Source: Bacteroidales bacterium (GTDB lineage Bacteria; Bacteroidota; Bacteroidia; Bacteroidales; F082). From it: a stretch of 50,884 nucleotides of DNA. The stretch's first letter is position 1. Every line of letters starts with the position of its first letter. Location of the stretch: the NCBI GenBank assembly GCA_015491905.1, contig WGGC01000196.1, positions 1 to 50,884 of the forward strand, in the 5' to 3' direction. Positions 4,028 through 42,431 of the stretch are shown piece after piece. The notes under the pieces are model-generated. The model was given only the letters and a program-made list of their open reading frames with translations, was not told the origin of the DNA and did no database searches. The translations under genes were made by a program, and so were the position numbers.

Positions 4028-5236
4028 TTATTTTAATTTCTCAAGTGCCGCTTTCATCCTCTCTATGGCCTCCTCAATAAGACTTTTGGAAGTAGCATAC
4101 GATATTCTAATAGAATTAGCTTCGCCAAAGGCTTCTCCCGGAACTACTGCTACATTAGCTTCATTTAAAAAGTACATGCTCAAGTCATAACCATTTTTTA
4201 TCTCCTCTCCTTTAAAGCTTTTACCAAAATAATAACTTACATCAGGAAACAAATAAAAAGCCCCATCCGGAACATAAGTTATAACCCCCGGAATCTTCGA
4301 CATGAGTTCTACAAGTATATCACGACGCTCTTTAAATGCACTCACCATAGTATGAATGTATTTCGAATCTTTTGGCGAATTTTTTAATGCTGTTAATGCA
4401 GCCATCTGTGAAATACTTCCCGGTCCACTGGTATATTGCCCCTGCAACTTAATACATGCCTCTGCCAAAAACTTCGGCCCGGCCATATAGCCTATGCGCC
4501 AGCCCGTCATAGCATAACATTTAGATACGCCGTTAACAATAACAACCTGATCTTTTACTTCTGCAAATGATCCTATACTAACATGTTTCCCCGAAAAATG
4601 TATATGCTCATAAATCTCATCCGAAACAATCAAAATATCAGGATATTCTTTCAATACCGCTACTAATGCCGCAATTTCATCTTCCGAATACACCATTCCG
4701 GTAGGATTGGATGGCGAATTAAATAAAAAAGCCTTTGTTTTAGGCGTTATAGCCTTCCTCAGATCTTCCGGCTGTATCTTAAAATGTTTCTCTACCCCGG
4801 TAGAAACTGCAACAACAGTACCGCTTGCCATCTTAATAATATCGGAATAAGAAACCCAGTATGGAGCCGCAAGAATTACTTCATCCCCGGGATTTAATAT
4901 CGACATAAAAATATTAGCCAGCGATTGCTTGGCGCCATTAGAAACCACCACCTGTTCCGGACTGTAATCCAGGTTGTTATCACGCTTCAATTTCATACTT
5001 ACCGCCTCCTGCAGCTCTCTGAATCCTGCTACTGGCGGGTAATGCGTAATATTGTTATCAATAGCTTTCTTGGCTGCTTCCTTTACCGGATCCGGTGTGT
5101 TAAAATCAGGCTCGCCAATGCTCAAATTAATAATATCTTTCCCCTGTGCACGCAATTCGCGGCTGCGTCTTGTCATCTCCAAAGTCGCCGACAAAGAAAT
5201 TCGCTGTACTCGTTTTGATATAATACTTTTATTCAC
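4028..5236 (-). CDS. aspC: Aspartate aminotransferase (class I, subgroup Ib)
   Basis: This 402-aa fold-type I PLP enzyme has NLSIGEPDF at 37-45, SPSNPTG at 174-180, SDEIYE at 205-210 and the PLP-binding SKCYAMTGWR with Lys239, then Arg in the C-terminal SIRISYATS. It transfers the amino group between aspartate and 2-oxoglutarate. The start is GTG at 5236: the nearest upstream ATG is out of use because it opens a three-codon frame (ATGGATAAGTGA) whose stop overlaps the GTG. Family members begin at the same distance from the GEPDF motif. A TACCTTTG -7 box lies at 5259-5266. It leads the run aspC-kinase-ubiE-porT. Related aminotransferases (tyrosine, methionine) cannot be fully excluded. Confidence 0.92.
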   Translation of the reverse strand: MNKSIISKRVQRISLSATLEMTRRSRELRAQGKDIINLSIGEPDFNTPDPVKEAAKKAIDNNITHYPPVAGFRELQEAVSMKLKRDNNLDYSPEQVVVSNGAKQSLANIFMSILNPGDEVILAAPYWVSYSDIIKMASGTVVAVSTGVEKHFKIQPEDLRKAITPKTKAFLFNSPSNPTGMVYSEDEIAALVAVLKEYPDILIVSDEIYEHIHFSGKHVSIGSFAEVKDQVVIVNGVSKCYAMTGWRIGYMAGPKFLAEACIKLQGQYTSGPGSISQMAALTALKNSPKDSKYIHTMVSAFKERRDILVELMSKIPGVITYVPDGAFYLFPDVSYYFGKSFKGEEIKNGYDLSMYFLNEANVAVVPGEAFGEANSIRISYATSKSLIEEAIERMKAALEKLK

Positions 5237-5266: not shown

Positions 5267-5403
5267 ATAATTCCCTACAAACTTATCATTTTTATTACAT
5301 TCTGAAAAATATGTTTTTTATTTTTATTCCATTCATTACTACCTGTAAATCATTATAGGGGTTGCGGTTCCCTCCCGCCTTCTTTACTAACCGCACCGGG
5401 CCG

Positions 5404-5517
5404 TCCGCTATAGTGCCGGCAACAAAAGCCGTGTGCCGCAACTGCCTCCGGGGCGCTCCCGTGTCGCACCCTACAGCAGGCGGCACATCGCCTTTCGTTA
5501 CCACCAGCTGCCGCTGC
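5404..5517 (+). repeat. GC-rich hairpin repeat, copy A
   Basis: A GC-rich island in the divergent space between aspC and the 188-aa membrane protein. It begins TCCGCTATAGT (5404-5414) and ends CTGCCGCTGC (5508-5517), the same ends as copy B at 36490. The arms at 5418-5439 and 5480-5502 can pair: GTGCCGC with GCGGCAC is perfect and is followed by shorter paired blocks. The loop contains GGGGCGCTCCCGTGTCGC, shared in part with copies B and C. No ribosome binding site or believable protein is seen in it. It may be a structured RNA, a DNA cruciform or a mobile repeat. Confidence 0.7.
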
Positions 5518-5616
5518 CACCCCTACCCCAAAAAGTACATTACAACGAAATTATTTCATTATTGCTCCGAATCAAAATAAGTTGTTATTTTGTATAACAA
5601 ATTAAAACATTTCGTA

Positions 5617-30428: not shown

Positions 30429-30459
30429 AGCTTTTCCACCGAAAGCTTCGAAAAATAAT

Positions 30460-30608
30460 TATAATGGCAGGTCTTCCGGCTTATCGTATTTTGTACGCCT
30501 TCCCATCACGAATAAATGTGACAGTGACTTCAGAATGACAAAACTTTATTACGATTTACGGCTGCGGGGACAGCTCCTGTTTCTCACAGGATTCCCTTAA
30601 CCATCATA
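30460..30608 (-). promoter_or_regulatory. Cobalamin (AdoCbl) riboswitch
   Basis: On the minus strand the aptamer runs from P1 TATGATGG (30601-30608) to CCATTATA (30460-30467). Inside are the conserved blocks AAGGGAATC, a CCTGTGAGAAACAGG hairpin, GCTGTCCCCGCAGCCGTAA (30556-30574), GTCACTG, GGGAAGGCG and the B12 box GCCGGAAGACCTGCC (30466-30480). The -7 box at 30616-30623 puts the transcript start almost at P1. It precedes the two surface proteins, btuB and the BtuG-like gene, so high cobalamin should shut down the whole capture operon. Confidence 0.95.
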
Positions 30609-30615
30609 TTCTCAG

Positions 30616-30642
30616 CAAAGATATAAATTTTTATTCTCTGAA
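30616..30642 (-). promoter_or_regulatory. Promoter of the B12 operon
   Basis: The minus-strand -7 box TATCTTTG lies at 30616-30623. A TTTT that may serve as a -33 box follows 17-18 bases upstream (within TGTTTTC). The same weak -33/-7 pair is seen on the opposite strand before the thioredoxin gene. Confidence 0.55.
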
Positions 30643-34157: not shown

Positions 34158-35237
34158 CTATTTAGGTGCCTTTTTCAACAGATAAACAGTGATTAGCAAA
34201 AATATTATGTTCGGTATCCAGGCACCTATAGAAGGATCAAGATTTCCCTGGGTAGAAAAAACAGTTGTCACCTGCATCAGTAAAATATAAGAAAAAGCAA
34301 GTAAAAGTCCCAGTCCGAGATGCATACCTATCCCTCCTCTTGTTTTTCGGCACGAAAGTGCCATTCCCATAAACGTTAAAATTATAATGGCTACAGGTCC
34401 TGCAATACGCTTATATTTTTCTATTTCAAACTTTTTATACAACAGTGATCCCTTTTCTTTTTCTGCCTTTATATAATGGTTTAATTCCGCAAGGGTCATT
34501 TCATCATACTTAGGTCGTATTTTATATAAATCCGTAGGTTTTAGCCGCAAAGTAGTGTCCAATACTGCTCCTTTAAATAAATGCTGCCGCTCCAGCGAAT
34601 CCAACGTACGGCCATGATAATCGGATAATATCCACTTGTTTTCTGTAGTGTCCCATTTTACCGTCCGGGCATCAAGCTTATAAACTAAATGCTCGCCCTT
34701 AAATTTTTCCAGCGAAAAACGATATCCCGACATACGCTTGGGGTTAAATGACTGAACATAAGCAAACACCCCCGGACTCAACTGTACATGAACATTTCGT
34801 TTGTTATTAACGGGTGGCGTGTCAATATATTTATCCATAAATACATGCATTTTCTTATTGGTTTTAGGAATTAGAAAATTGCCCATATAAAAAGATAAAA
34901 CCGCCAAAAACATAGAAGCCAGAAAGTATGGATACAACAAACGTTTAAAACTTACACCATTACTTAACATGGCAATAATCTCAGTATTTGCCGCTAACCG
35001 CGAGGTGAAAAACACCACTGAAATAAAAGTGAATAAGTAAATAAAAAGGTTAATAAAATACGGAATGAAATTTACATAATAATCAAAAATAATTTCATGT
35101 AAACTGGCATGTTTGCTAATAAAATTACCTATTTTTTCAGATATATCAAAAACTATAACAATTACTATTAGTAACGTAATTGAATAAAAAAACGTCCCCA
35201 GAAACTTTTTTATGATATATCTGTCAAGTAATTTCAA
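34158..35237 (-). CDS. LptF/LptG family permease (YjgP/YjgQ)
   Basis: The 359-aa protein has six membrane segments in the LptF/G arrangement: three near the N-terminus (about 13-35, 55-76, 98-118), a large periplasmic beta-jellyroll-like region (about 130-265) and three near the C-terminus (275-295, 303-325, 332-353). RYIIKKFLGTFFYS at the start is typical. The family forms the inner-membrane part of the LPS export machine with LptB. Only one copy is in the window; Bacteroidota often have two unlinked genes. It starts 28 bases after the tgt stop, a pairing common in this phylum. Confidence 0.9.
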   Translation of the reverse strand: MKLLDRYIIKKFLGTFFYSITLLIVIVIVFDISEKIGNFISKHASLHEIIFDYYVNFIPYFINLFIYLFTFISVVFFTSRLAANTEIIAMLSNGVSFKRLLYPYFLASMFLAVLSFYMGNFLIPKTNKKMHVFMDKYIDTPPVNNKRNVHVQLSPGVFAYVQSFNPKRMSGYRFSLEKFKGEHLVYKLDARTVKWDTTENKWILSDYHGRTLDSLERQHLFKGAVLDTTLRLKPTDLYKIRPKYDEMTLAELNHYIKAEKEKGSLLYKKFEIEKYKRIAGPVAIIILTFMGMALSCRKTRGGIGMHLGLGLLLAFSYILLMQVTTVFSTQGNLDPSIGAWIPNIIFLLITVYLLKKAPK

Positions 35238-35265
35238 AAGCAGAATTTATTTTTATTTGCTATTA

Positions 35266-36396
35266 TTATAATCTTTGCCTAACTCTCACCACCATCTTGT
35301 TTTTCCATTCAGCGAAATCTCCTGCTAAAATATGCTTTCTTGCCTCACCTACCAACCAAAGATAAAAAGCCAGATTATGCTGACTGGCAATCATACTGCC
35401 TAGAAACTCCCTTGCCGAAAATAAATGTCTCACATAAGCTTTGCTGTAAGCCTTATCCACGAAAGAAGTCCCGTCAGGGTCAAGAGCACTGAAATCAGCC
35501 TCCCATTTTTTATTTTTTATATTTATAATACCATTTTGGGTAAATAACATGCCATTCCTTCCATTTCTGGTAGGCATAACACAATCCATCATATCCACCC
35601 CAACGGCAATACTCTCTAAAATATTCTCCGGTGTGCCCACGCCCATTAAATACCTTGGCTTGTCGTTGGGAAGAATGCCGCACACCAGTTCAGTCATTTC
35701 ATACATCATTTCATGTGGCTCTCCTACCGACAAACCACCAATAGCATTCCCATCGGCATCGTAGCTGGCTATTTCTTCTGCCGACTTCTTCCGTAAATCT
35801 TTATACACACTACCTTGCACAATAGGAAACAAACTTTGCTGATAACCATATTTCGGCTCTGTTTCATTAAAACGTGTTACACAACGCTTTAACCAATGAT
35901 GTGTTATATCCAACGATTTGGAGGCATAATCATAATCACAAGGATATGGCGTACACTCGTCAAAAGCCATCATAATGTCGGCACCTATACTGCGCTGCGT
36001 ATCCATTACATTTTCAGGCGTAAACTTATGCTTTGAACCATCAATATGCGAACGAAACAACACTCCTGTTTCATCAAGTTTGCGTGTTCCCGAAAGCGAA
36101 TAAACCTGATAACCGCCACTATCTGTAAGTATTGGACGTTCCCACGAGTTAAACTTATGCAACCCACCGGCCTGCTCAATAATTTTAGTGCCCGGCCGCA
36201 AAAATAAATGATACGTATTTCCCAGAATTATCTGCGCTTTAACATCCTCTTTCACCTCTTTCATATGGATTCCTTTCACCGAACCCACCGTTCCCACAGG
36301 CATAAATATAGGCGTTTGTATCTTGCCGTGGCCTGTAGAAATCTCCCCCGCCCTGGCCGCCGATTTTGTATCTGTTTTTTCCAGCTTAAACTGCAT
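35266..36396 (-). CDS. tgt: Queuine tRNA-ribosyltransferase lacking zinc cysteines
   Basis: From the ATG at 36396 the 376-aa protein carries the TGT signatures LTDSGGYQVYSL, MAFDECTPYP, IGGLSVGEP and DCVMPTRNGRNGMLF, including both catalytic aspartates. It exchanges guanine 34 for preQ1 (bacterial substrate) in tRNAs with GUN anticodons. In the E. coli enzyme the zinc ligands are in the block CDCYTC; here the aligned block reads GTSFVD, while the later QHN histidine is kept, so the zinc site is lost. The open frame reaches 36570 into a GC-rich repeat, but the -7 box TATCTTTG at 36413-36420 lies within that extension, so the ATG at 36396 is preferred. lptF/G follows after 28 bases. Confidence 0.93.
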   Translation of the reverse strand: MQFKLEKTDTKSAARAGEISTGHGKIQTPIFMPVGTVGSVKGIHMKEVKEDVKAQIILGNTYHLFLRPGTKIIEQAGGLHKFNSWERPILTDSGGYQVYSLSGTRKLDETGVLFRSHIDGSKHKFTPENVMDTQRSIGADIMMAFDECTPYPCDYDYASKSLDITHHWLKRCVTRFNETEPKYGYQQSLFPIVQGSVYKDLRKKSAEEIASYDADGNAIGGLSVGEPHEMMYEMTELVCGILPNDKPRYLMGVGTPENILESIAVGVDMMDCVMPTRNGRNGMLFTQNGIINIKNKKWEADFSALDPDGTSFVDKAYSKAYVRHLFSAREFLGSMIASQHNLAFYLWLVGEARKHILAGDFAEWKNKMVVRVRQRL

Positions 36397-36420: not shown

Positions 36421-36489
36421 ATCCAAATCAACAATTCCTGTTAATAAAGTGCGTTTCCCTTTAAAATTATTTGGCGGCCTGTGGTGCTT

Positions 36490-36602
36490 TCCGCTATAGT
36501 CCTCGGTGCAAAACAGGGTGTGCCAACGGTTTTTCAGGGGCTCCTGTTGTCGCCCTGCCTCACCGGGCACTCCTCTGTTTTGCCCCTGCGGGCTGCCGCT
36601 GC
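36490..36602 (+). repeat. GC-rich hairpin repeat, copy B
   Basis: Starts TCCGCTATAGT and ends CTGCCGCTGC, exactly like copy A. The arm GCAAAACAG (36508-36516 region) pairs perfectly with CTGTTTTGC (36574-36583 region), followed by GTGCC pairing with GGCAC. The loop contains CAGGGGCTCCTGTTGTCGCC, a block shared with copy C. It lies in the divergent space between tgt and the phosphoesterase gene. No coding signal. Confidence 0.7.
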
Positions 36603-36724
36603 AATCACCGGCCGAAATTATTCACAAAACAATATCATACAATATAAAGTTTCCTTAAATCCGAAATAAATACCAATTATCATTTAAAATAAATACCATT
36701 GAAGCAAGATTTGCGGCAAGGATG

Positions 36725-36839
36725 GAAGCGGCAGCGAGACCCCGGCAGGGTGTTGTGAGACCGGTGAGAAAGGGGCGACAACAGGAGCCCCCTGAAACAC
36801 CATGGACGAACACACCCTGCCGGGGTTGACTAAAGCGAA
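36725..36839 (-). repeat. GC-rich hairpin repeat, copy C (inverted relative to B)
   Basis: Read on the minus strand it starts TTCGCTTTAGT and ends CTGCCGCTTC. Its arms are a perfect 14-bp inverted repeat, CCCCGGCAGGGTGT (plus strand 36740-36753) and ACACCCTGCCGGGG (36812-36825), around the loop block shared with copy B. GGGGC/GCCCC near the centre (about 36773-36790) could pair inside the loop. Arm sequence differs from A and B but pairing is kept. Additional GC-rich DNA continues to about 36892. Confidence 0.7.
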
Positions 36840-36968
36840 CAGCCTGGTGCAATTGCTGCAGGCTTGCGCGAAGCATTGCAGCCGCCCCGAAAAATCATTT
36901 TATCTTAATATATAAATGTACCATAATCCTTATTTTTATTTATTTTCGCAACATTAATACTTAAAATC

Positions 36969-37019
36969 ATGAAACATCCATTCTTGAATAATTTTTTAGG
37001 CATGGTAAGTTCCATTTGA
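36969..37019 (+). other. Possible 16-codon leader ORF
   Basis: ATG at 36969 opens a 16-residue frame (MKHPFLNNFLGMVSSI) ending 26 bases before the phosphoesterase start. It could be an untranslated chance frame; there is no attenuator structure visible beside it. Recorded only because it is the first ATG after the likely promoter region. Confidence 0.2.
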
Positions 37020-37045
37020 CCAATAAAATTCAAAATTATAAACAG

Positions 37046-39724
37046 ATGAACAAAATTTTATTTCCGCTACTAAGCATTTTAGCCCTTTTATTTTTTGGAT
37101 GTCAGCAACAAAATGGCAGCCATAATTCAGCACAAAAAACCGGAAACCTTAAAGACTCGGTACTAACAATGCCCTACAACAAAATTTTAAAGCCTGCAGG
37201 AAAGCAACTGTTTTTTGGAGATTCGGCACTGGAAAACCATGCTTTGGATGTAGCCCTTTCGCCGGATAAAAAAACGGCGGCAGTAGAAGGACGTTATAGT
37301 GTTGTTTTTGTCGATGTACCCACAGGAGAAATTGTTTACCGACTGGTTTTAAGGAAGTTCTACAAAGGAAAAGCTATGAACACTTACTCGGGAATAAAAT
37401 GGTTTACCGACAAAGGACAGCAAAAATTGCTCTGGGGCACGCGTAATAATGTTATGGAGGCGGTTTGGAATGGAAAAACTGCAGAAATTGTAAAAACCTA
37501 TAATTTCCAACCAAAAAAAGGTGTAAGAGCTTCCATACCAAATGAATCGGTGATACGAAAAGAAAACGGAAAAATGGTGGCCTATACTGTTTTAAACGGT
37601 AACGACAGAGTTGTAAAATTTGAACTGGGTACAGGGAAAATAATATGGCAAAAAGCTGTAGGCCTTGCTCCATACGGAATTGTAATGGCAAAAGGAAAAC
37701 TTTATGTTACCAACTGGTCGGGAGCAGTTCCTCCTCCCAACGCTAAACCTACAGCAGGCATTCCATGGGAAAAAGCATATGTTAACAAATATGGCGCCGT
37801 TTCATCAGGAACAGTAAGTGTTTTAAATCCAAAAACCGGAAAAACACTAAAAGAAATAAAAACAGGATTACATCCTAATGCTGTTATATCTTCTCCAAAT
37901 CAACAATTTGTTTATGTTGCCAATGGAAATGATGACAATATTAGCGTAATAAGTACCAAGACCAACCGGGTAGTAGAAACAATATCAGTACGGTTAAATA
38001 AGGAAACAAATCCTTATGTTGGCGATTCTCCCAACGGACTGGCTATTACCAGCAATGGAAAAACATTGTATGTTGCTAACGGAATGGATGATGCATTGGC
38101 GGTTATTAAACTAGGAAAAAAATCATCACAGAACAGTAATGTCAATGTTTCTGCTATTACCGGATTTATTCCCACAGCTGCCTATCCCGGTGGTATAAGC
38201 CTTTTGAACGATTCTGTTTTATATGTTGCCAACATAGAGGGAATTGGAGCCCGTTTAACATCTCCTAATAAAAACAATCCTGCCTATCGCACTTTTATAA
38301 AGGTAAATGGAAAACGTACTTCCACAGCCGGTGCATATAACAGTCACCGTATGATGGCTACAATATCTATTATTCCGGTTCCAGATAACAAACAACTGAA
38401 AGCATACACCCAAACAGTAAAAACTACCAACAGACAGGCACGCTTGGCAATGCTGAAGTTATTACCCCGTAAAAATATGAAACCTGTTCCTGTTCCGGAA
38501 CGGATTGGGGAACCTTCTGTTTTTAAACACGTTATTTATATTATTAAAGAAAACAGAACCTACGATCAGGTGCTGGGAGATATTAAAAAAGGTAATGGCG
38601 ATCCTTCACTGACAGTTTTCGGAAAGAAAATCACTCCTAATTCGCATAAGCTTGTAAATGATTATGTATTATTGGATAATTACATGGCTTCAGGAAAATG
38701 TTCAGCTGAAGGACATGTGTGGACAGATGCATCAATAGTTCCTGATTACATTGAAAAAAATGTGCGAGCATGGTTTAGAAGTTATACTCATGTTTTGTAT
38801 GATGCTATGGCGTATCCCAAAACAGGTTTTATTTGGGACAATGCTTTGGATCATGGTAAAACAGCAAGGATTTATGGTGAAGCATGTAAACCGGAATGGA
38901 AAAGTGGGGAAAAATGGACAGGTGTTTACAATAATTTTATAGCCGGAAAGCCTTTTAAATTTCAAAATATCACTACTATCGACAGGGTACGTGGAATTTT
39001 ATCCCCTGCCTATCCTGGCTATGACAGTCACAATGTACCGGATGTATTGCGTGCTGCCTCATTTATAAAAGAGTTGAAAGCATTTGAAAAAATGAAAGGC
39101 GATGCACTTCCTGAATTAATTGTTATGGCACTTCCTAATGATCATACATCCGGAACTTCGCCGCAACATCCAACACCGCGCGCTATGGTTGCCGATAATG
39201 ACGTAGCATTGGGCCGTATTGTAGAGGCTGTAAGTAAAAGTCGTTTTTGGAAAAATACTGTTATTTTTGTTACTGAAGATGACTCACAAAACGGATGGGA
39301 TCATGTGTCGGCATATCGTACTGTAGCAATGGTAATAAGCCCATACAGCAAAACAGGTAAAGTAGTTTCTACAAATTATAACCAAACATCCATGATTCGT
39401 ACTATTGAACAAATTTTGGGCTTACCGCCAATGAATATTATGGATGCTTCGGCAAAACCTATGTTTGACGTTTTTTCCAATCAACCTGATTTTTCTGCTT
39501 ATTCACCACTAAAAAATAATATTCCATTAAATGAAATGAATCCTCCACTAAGTGCATTAAAAGGAAACGCAAAAGAATTTGCAAAAGAATCTTTACAAAT
39601 GGCACAGAAAGGTATTGATGCCGGTGATGACCAGCTATTTAACAGAATATTATGGGAAGCATCAAAAAAAGGAAAACCTTATCCTGAAAAATATTCAGGT
39701 AATGAAAAAGACTGGGATGACTAA
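37046..39724 (+). CDS. YncE beta-propeller / alkaline-phosphatase-family phosphoesterase fusion lipoprotein
   Basis: From the ATG at 37046 the 892-aa protein has a lipoprotein signal ending ALLFFGC (Cys19). An N-terminal propeller (about 40-470) carries repeated NPKTGKTL, HPNAVISSPNQQFVYVAN and SPNGLAIT-type blades. The C-terminal half (about 495-830) is a phosphoesterase with HVIYIIKENRTYDQVLGD, DNYMASGKCSAEGH and TEDDSQNGWDHV, resembling the PF04185-type alkaline phosphatase-like fold. Such 'bifunctional YncE/alkaline phosphatase' proteins are known only by annotation. It probably cleaves phosphate esters at the cell surface or periplasm. An earlier in-frame TTG at 37016 is less likely. A convergent hairpin follows the stop. 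Confidence 0.88.
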   Translation: MNKILFPLLSILALLFFGCQQQNGSHNSAQKTGNLKDSVLTMPYNKILKPAGKQLFFGDSALENHALDVALSPDKKTAAVEGRYSVVFVDVPTGEIVYRLVLRKFYKGKAMNTYSGIKWFTDKGQQKLLWGTRNNVMEAVWNGKTAEIVKTYNFQPKKGVRASIPNESVIRKENGKMVAYTVLNGNDRVVKFELGTGKIIWQKAVGLAPYGIVMAKGKLYVTNWSGAVPPPNAKPTAGIPWEKAYVNKYGAVSSGTVSVLNPKTGKTLKEIKTGLHPNAVISSPNQQFVYVANGNDDNISVISTKTNRVVETISVRLNKETNPYVGDSPNGLAITSNGKTLYVANGMDDALAVIKLGKKSSQNSNVNVSAITGFIPTAAYPGGISLLNDSVLYVANIEGIGARLTSPNKNNPAYRTFIKVNGKRTSTAGAYNSHRMMATISIIPVPDNKQLKAYTQTVKTTNRQARLAMLKLLPRKNMKPVPVPERIGEPSVFKHVIYIIKENRTYDQVLGDIKKGNGDPSLTVFGKKITPNSHKLVNDYVLLDNYMASGKCSAEGHVWTDASIVPDYIEKNVRAWFRSYTHVLYDAMAYPKTGFIWDNALDHGKTARIYGEACKPEWKSGEKWTGVYNNFIAGKPFKFQNITTIDRVRGILSPAYPGYDSHNVPDVLRAASFIKELKAFEKMKGDALPELIVMALPNDHTSGTSPQHPTPRAMVADNDVALGRIVEAVSKSRFWKNTVIFVTEDDSQNGWDHVSAYRTVAMVISPYSKTGKVVSTNYNQTSMIRTIEQILGLPPMNIMDASAKPMFDVFSNQPDFSAYSPLKNNIPLNEMNPPLSALKGNAKEFAKESLQMAQKGIDAGDDQLFNRILWEASKKGKPYPEKYSGNEKDWDD

Positions 39725-42311: not shown

Positions 42312-42431
42312 GTTTAAATTATAATTCCCTCTCCATTTTGCTGGAGATGGCAGGTATTGGCACCTTTCCAAAAGGCAGGTTGCCGGAGTTTCACTGAGCC
42401 TGATCTCTTCACTCCTCTGTATAATTCAAAC
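42312..42431 (-). promoter_or_regulatory. SAM-I (S-box) riboswitch
   Basis: On the minus strand P1 pairs GTTTGAATTATA (42420-42431) with TATAATTTAAAC (42312-42323), 12 bp with one G-U. Inside are a kink-turn-bearing P2 bounded by GGAGT and ACTCC, the S-box core CCGGCAACC (42378-42386), AAGGTGCCAATACCTGCC (42349-42366) and a CTCCAGCAAAATGGAG hairpin. It precedes metY-metX, so SAM should repress methionine synthesis. The position and order of motifs fit SAM-I rather than SAM-II. Confidence 0.93.

Follow-up and report, generated by a model that had tools for sequence, protein, structure and literature searches.

Flavo-1-related DNA hairpins in a Bacteroidales genus are accompanied by a directional, G-rich footprint on their 3' side

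What is the GC-rich hairpin that occurs three times between the genes of one Bacteroidales contig, and does it act as RNA or as DNA? The stretch analysed here, hereafter the window, comprises 50,884 nt of contig WGGC01000196.1 (assembly GCA_015491905.1), from a genome of 3.0 Mb (G000). A first-pass annotation had described three copies (A, B and C) with shared ends, a common loop block and arms that pair within each copy, all of which we recovered at the places described. A covariance model (R1), oriented as R, the strand that folds better, was built from 37 aligned copies (alignment A1). These came from 41 loci after exclusion of L015, L016 and L017, which are short and lie inside genes, and of L047, which is the same place as L036; the overlapping or fragmentary loci L025, L026, L031, L032, L034, L043, L046, L049 and L050 were not used. 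The model-defined limits show that the 113-115 bp initially assigned to the copies were too short, and R is the reverse of the strand initially given, being the minus strand for copies A and B and the plus strand for copy C. The features of the three loci are as follows:

5393..5531, minus (R strand): copy A, element core, model positions 1-140 (121.4 bits, E 1.4e-27; fold)
5354..5392, minus: copy A, GC-rich variable 3' extension (limits approximate, by eye)
5453..5467, minus: copy A, conserved tip of the GCGAC...GGAGC type (sequence and alignment)
36479..36616, minus (R strand): copy B, element core (119.1 bits, E 5.5e-27; fold)
36540..36553, minus: copy B, conserved tip (sequence and alignment)
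36711..36850, plus (R strand): copy C, element core (124.9 bits, E 1.8e-28; fold)
36775..36788, plus: copy C, conserved tip (sequence and alignment)
36851..36890, plus: copy C, variable 3' hairpin (limits approximate, by eye; fold)
4028..5236, minus: aminotransferase gene, 3' of copy A on R (four-fold-site skew +0.36 on R)
34158..36396, minus: genes 3' of copy B on R, tgt (+0.31; start inferred) and an LptF/LptG-family gene (+0.40)
37016..39724, plus: phosphoesterase-domain gene, 3' of copy C (skew -0.12 over the whole gene, unlike the footprint described below)

All three copies lie in divergent intergenic DNA, as originally proposed. Copy A is located between the aminotransferase gene (minus) and a DUF7935 gene (plus), while copies B and C form an inverted pair, 94 bp apart and with the R 5' ends facing, between tgt (minus) and the phosphoesterase-domain gene (plus). 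The tgt open reading frame starts inside copy B; since the first Met of this frame is at residue 59 and the Pfam match covers nothing before residue 71, copy B is very probably upstream of where tgt truly starts. RNA fold z-scores for A, B and C were -3.28, -3.65 and -6.68 on R, and -1.33, -2.81 and -5.45 on the complementary strand. An Rfam scan of the window assigned no family at its gathering score to the three copies. Elsewhere in the window, matches at curated scores comprised a cobalamin riboswitch (30449-30620, minus), a SAM riboswitch (42316-42427, minus) and a tRNA (449-522, minus).

The element is a single hairpin of about 140 nt (137-144 nt in the 37 copies), composed of a conserved basal core, arms that vary freely in sequence while remaining paired, and a conserved GCGAC-N-GGAGC-like tip. 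On R, the 5' strand runs GGG-A-TG-GAA-GC-GGC-AG(C), followed by the variable arm and by the tip on a GC stem; after the tip, the returning arm leads into ACTATAGC-GGA-CA-G-CCC. The internal loops are purine-rich, and many copies contain a further variable hairpin on the 3' side. The tip motif was present in 37/37 copies of A1, 40/44 of A2 and 41/44 of A3, which includes four copies shared with model training. In A1, standard pairs occupied 92.2% of cells and double-sided changes were found at 24 of the 29 pairs, with a covariation score of 0.605 versus 0.200 for shuffled and 0.08-0.17 for slid alignments. The seven basal pairs were paired in 259 out of 259 cells, with double changes at every one of them. 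The 44 copies of G004, a one-contig genome of another species of the genus, are outside the model. They were 88.8% paired, with double-sided changes at 26 of the 29 pairs and a score of 0.563 versus 0.167 shuffled, in an alignment fitted to the model that therefore leans toward the model pairing. The pattern of a selected hairpin, which had been read from three copies, thus extends to 37 copies and to 44 independent ones: this is a long hairpin with a defined folding strand, its pairing kept by selection. A further pairing of its outermost ends was rejected, as it was slight in G000 (own ends 5.24 vs 4.84) and made no difference in G004.

The R1 model retrieved 77 matches in G000 (worst E 3.9e-7) and 44 in G004, which answers the question of whether further copies exist in the genome. 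BLAST searches of the same genome with copies A, B and C returned 17, 19 and 14 matches, mostly to related sub-families, on many contigs. Mean GC across the 77 copies was 0.57, compared with 0.30 in their flanks, a contrast noted earlier for the three window copies. All 11 same-genus genomes sampled carry the element, with 3-54 copies each. It was also detected in the family (2 of 12 other genera), in the order (3 of 16 genomes, and 17 of 198 in a broader sample) and in the phylum (31 of 296 genomes, where per-genome counts are lower bounds). Among 52 named loci found by pattern, 24 were confirmed by the model (E <= 1.3e-4), all labelled Bacteroidota; the initial impression of similar islands in other members of the phylum was therefore correct. 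In other genomes, short (~64-100 nt) and long (~138-143 nt) matches coexist. Carriage by phages, plasmids or viruses was rejected, as a BLAST search with copy C alone gave no match; a viral pattern search gave 7 and 0 hits, and none of the 7 fitted the model.

Some local arrangements were also recorded. Five close inverted pairs occur in G000, on contigs C196, C156, C68, C173 and C107, with gaps of 41-246 bp, and a sixth on C145 is 1094 bp apart; the R 5' ends face each other in all six. No element pair closer than 1.5 kb was found among the 44 G004 copies, of which only two lie in the interval 1.87-2.72 Mb, a quarter of contig C1. On C38 of G000 (L260, about 4111-4376), the basal core of the copy is interrupted by an insert of ~270 bp whose inverted ends are imperfect. 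The same junction is seen on C86 and, at a contig end, on C179 (further loci L261, on C86, and L012), and the insert resembles a small mobile element with the repeat as its landing site.

The first-pass annotation knew of no name for the element. The nearest family does have one, Flavo-1 (RF01705), at scores that fall short of membership. Full-length Flavo-1 matches were obtained for 4 of the 37 copies scanned, on the right strand and with agreeing limits, at 22.3-31.4 bits against a gathering score of 42 bits, which no long copy reached; for the window copies, relaxing the E-value limit to 5 still yielded no match. A single G000 site, a shorter form on C200, exceeded the threshold (43.2 bits). 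The element and Flavo-1 have in common the basal stem with its internal-loop pattern and, on the same strand, its key bases (4/37 copies match in basal helix and internal loops), as well as their occurrence in Bacteroidota and the lack of a tie to any single gene. The element differs in being about twice as long (~140 nt versus 76 model positions), and in having an additional long arm that ends in a separate conserved tip, a high copy number and a footprint in the genus. Since only 4/37 copies match, below threshold, and none of those in the window, we regard it as a long-armed relative of Flavo-1 rather than a member by score. It is related to Flavo-1 in its basal core and has been amplified in this genus.

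A structured non-coding RNA, either an RNA gene or part of a UTR, with the pairing kept for RNA function, is a reading that we consider somewhat unlikely. It agrees with the strong covariation in training and independent copies, with the better folding of R than of its complement, with the purine-rich internal loops and with the excess of G.T over A.C pairs on R in the window's genome (59:14 and 42:13, but 30:25 in G004). Flavo-1 itself is rated a probable RNA, and not cis-regulatory, in a table of Weinberg 2010 (PMC2864571). Another report ranks it with the most abundant sRNA families of bacteria and names no function for it (PMC9029176). However, an RNA-seq study of F. psychrophilum places Flavo-1 hits sense or antisense to transcribed regions, with many in none (PMC9723704).

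The genomic context of the copies also weighs against an RNA. Every orientation to genes is seen, and the 77 G000 loci have no evident common gene context: the strand of the gene at 600 bp relative to R is split 38:38 in G000 and 22:22 in G004, and the neighbours in G000 are laid out divergently at 21 loci, in tandem antisense at 17, in tandem sense at 15 and convergently at 12, with 12 unclassified. The -7 promoter motif of Bacteroidetes is TAnnTTTG. With this single consensus, no promoter was evident at the start of R, where only 6 motifs were found in 74 x 200 bp upstream in G000 and 5 in 44 x 200 bp in G004. The motif is over-represented 50-100 bp 3' of R, chiefly at copies with a gene start on that side. 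It lies between the element and a sense 3' gene in 27/43 cases in G000 and 18/27 in G004, whereas for antisense 3' genes a motif reading away from the element was found in 2/33 and 5/17 cases, respectively. Several of these antisense genes have, by eye, a terminator-like hairpin before the element. Because the motif is rare at the R start and present where genes start, gene promoters often lie between the element and the gene. The mixed orientation, the promoter pattern and the published RNA-seq data on Flavo-1 lead us to favour an element that acts at the DNA level.

A role as a cis-acting leader, or as an upstream regulatory element for certain genes, is very improbable. The three window copies had pointed to a nearby gene, and this bias vanished over all copies, so that a cis-regulatory leader was rejected. 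For several genes, two or three species do share an element on the same side and in the same orientation, as would fit such a role; the neighbour layouts are nonetheless mixed, and the promoter motif follows the element in most of the G000 sense cases.

The hairpin could instead be a miniature mobile element, REP/REPIN- or MITE-like, moved by a transposase in trans and without host function, with its structure kept since only foldable copies move. We judge this unlikely. Copy number varies between 3 and 77 within the genus, the distribution in the order is patchy (17/198), the six close inverted pairs share one arrangement, and eight phosphoesterase-gene loci in relatives, six of them with 1.5 kb of upstream sequence, are devoid of the element, all of which suits mobility. 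Since tgt was not found beside them, those eight loci fall short of clean empty sites. Moreover, near-identical young copies are absent, except for two contig-end copies at 97%, and the basal pairs are intact nearly everywhere, which implies few decayed relics, albeit the model may miss them; mobility would also leave the footprint described below unexplained. An insertion-sequence end had been named as a possible refutation of the hairpin. For Y1 transposases, 12 of 13 Y1_Tnp loci had no element nearby and one had an element within ~1.5 kb (46 Y1 matches were listed across 12 genus genomes). The only Y1 matches found in G000, both partial, are C32:3538-3696 and C177:3798-4010, the former ~740 bp from an element. 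Like REP/REPIN sequences, the element is an extragenic hairpin with many copies (77) and six inverted pairs closer than 1.5 kb; in contrast to REP/REPIN-RAYT systems, it has no flanking Y1 transposase in those 12 loci. REP elements, as commonly outlined, are several times shorter.

Several elements keep gene, side and orientation between species, which also weighs against mobility. An element was present beside both genes in 18 reciprocal orthologue pairs, of which 12 agreed in side and orientation; the 12 represent eight distinct genes, as two genes recur in three species pairs each, and come from regions chosen around elements. At five sites shared between G000 and G004, the similarity ranks of the element sequences were 36, 25, 13, 1 and 7 of 44, the closest relationship occurring only at AhcY (the gene names RecG, AhcY, CysD, aconitase-like and MenB are our presumptions from the protein starts). 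As the sequences are mutually closest at only one of the five sites, they may have arrived independently. Integron attC sites and plasmid single-strand origins are precedents in which one strand folds and the arm sequence is free while pairing is kept. Unlike these, the element is dispersed over the chromosome.

The element also has a compositional footprint: on its 3' side, the R strand is G-rich. Skew was measured at four-fold degenerate sites and balanced for gene direction; gene calls were our own ORF picks, and thresholds of 100-300 aa gave similar results. In G000, the excess of R-strand skew on the 3' side was 0.437, 0.320, 0.268, 0.109, 0.108 and 0.055 in successive bins from 50 bp to 4 kb, while on the 5' side it was near 0 within 2 kb. 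The footprint thus reaches about 2 kb at synonymous sites, whatever the gene direction; it passes gene boundaries and genes of opposite direction, and fades by the third gene. Skew was positive on the 3' side of 73/77 G000 copies, versus 34 positive and 30 negative on the 5' side, these counts covering all matches, including the short form on C200 and the contig-end copies on C38, C86 and C179 with the other insert, where an assembly effect is possible. The 3' count exceeded all 1000 orientation flips, and with one element per contig it was 53 vs 3 (p 8e-13). The median 3' skew at G000 elements was 0.34. No significant gradient was found inside single genes.

On the 3' side, G rises from 0.15 to 0.29, and A, T and C all fall. 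At two-fold sites on R, G/(G+A) increases from 0.237 to 0.368 while C/(C+T) is unchanged (0.256 and 0.242), and C-to-T change through exposure of R was thus not supported as the source. We know of no mutational process that gains G at the expense of all other bases and leaves the C/T ratio as it was. No specific G-rich motif was seen, and GG, GA, AG and TG were generally enriched.

In 378 kb of element-free G000 sequence, 213 genes had a mean skew of -0.081 (sd 0.203), and intergenic control gaps averaged +0.05. When the better of two orientations was taken at each control gap, the median was 0.15 and 4% reached 0.34 or more. In G004, control gaps gave 0.038 versus 0.168 at elements. Controls at tRNAs (4 and 15) were noisy and were set aside, with 3' means of 0.078 and -0.016 and 5' means of -0.511 and -0.198, in a run that double-counted loci (e.g. 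L096/L179, L099/L173, L102/L159), so that its p-values are too small. Replication-strand bias was rejected, as R is leading at 20 and lagging at 24 G004 copies, relative to an origin and terminus guessed from the skew of sampled stretches, and the footprint appears in both groups. Promoters were also rejected as its driver, since TAnnTTTG occurs mainly where a gene begins.

The footprint was reproduced in G004 (38:5 on the 3' side), with a weaker skew on the 5' side as well (29:13; 0.129 nearest the element). Genome G008 gave 15:4 (p 0.0014; best 20 of 40 copies) and G009 a weak 10:7 (p 0.098; best 20 of 47 copies). Family f22, which we take to be Flavobacteriaceae, had no footprint at 20 long copies (9:9, p 0.51), and its 20 short forms gave 11:8 (p 0.08). 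Neither of two other genomes of the order was significant (G413, 1:6; G368, 8:3). The footprint is not general: it did not replicate in one other family of the order or at the 20 long copies of the distant family f22. Genes with an element had a skew of 0.25, versus 0.11 in reciprocal orthologues without one (n=16, p 0.093). For G004 orthologues far from an element, five in sense showed no difference (0.16, 0.19) and 3/3 in antisense had no skew. The non-replicating families, the orthologue results, the missing gradient and the gene beside copy C argue against a general or causal reading of the footprint.

The order of events could also be the reverse, with the G-rich R strand coming first and elements inserting or surviving only in already skewed DNA, in one orientation. 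The wide variation in skew among genes without an element (sd 0.20), the non-significant orthologue comparison and the families lacking a clear footprint would fit this order, which we nevertheless regard as quite improbable. Only 2.8% of the 213 control genes fall below -0.4, whereas antisense 3' genes average -0.44; few control gaps match the elements even in their best orientation; the skew in G000 stops at the element on its 5' side; and the three antisense orthologues far from an element have none.

We therefore return to the reading that the element is a DNA hairpin starting a strand-specific process that leaves the 3' footprint, an account that we find plausible, if short of probable, and in which the action on DNA, the process and a protein are all inferred. 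Opening of the duplex would let the R strand fold, and a putative protein would recognise the conserved core and tip of the folded strand. A strand-specific process, which might be nicking with strand displacement, a restart of DNA synthesis or directional recombination, would then run from the hairpin toward the R 3' end for about 2 kb. Long repetition could leave the R strand G-rich, independently of gene and replication direction. Copies would rarely multiply and, once placed, would not move.

The Flavo-1 family itself was known before; what is new here is the directional G-enrichment 3' of the element, and the literature searched contained no evident description of a footprint of this sort. 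We argue that one branch of Flavo-1 works at the DNA level. That Flavo-1-type elements as a whole are strand-specific DNA hairpins, and not RNAs, that launch a directional DNA transaction is possible though doubtful. With similar reserve, each copy in the genus might, on that reading, repeatedly start strand-biased synthesis, repair or recombination toward the R 3' end. If so, the element would represent a novel class of cis-element on the chromosome, one that rewrites synonymous sites over ~2 kb and thereby leaves a molecular footprint open to reading. In this genus, a directional footprint in base composition marks the sites and is visible from sequence alone. Should the element be the cause of that footprint, dozens of natural start points of a strand-specific process would exist in each genome, and the function of Flavo-1 would become directly testable.
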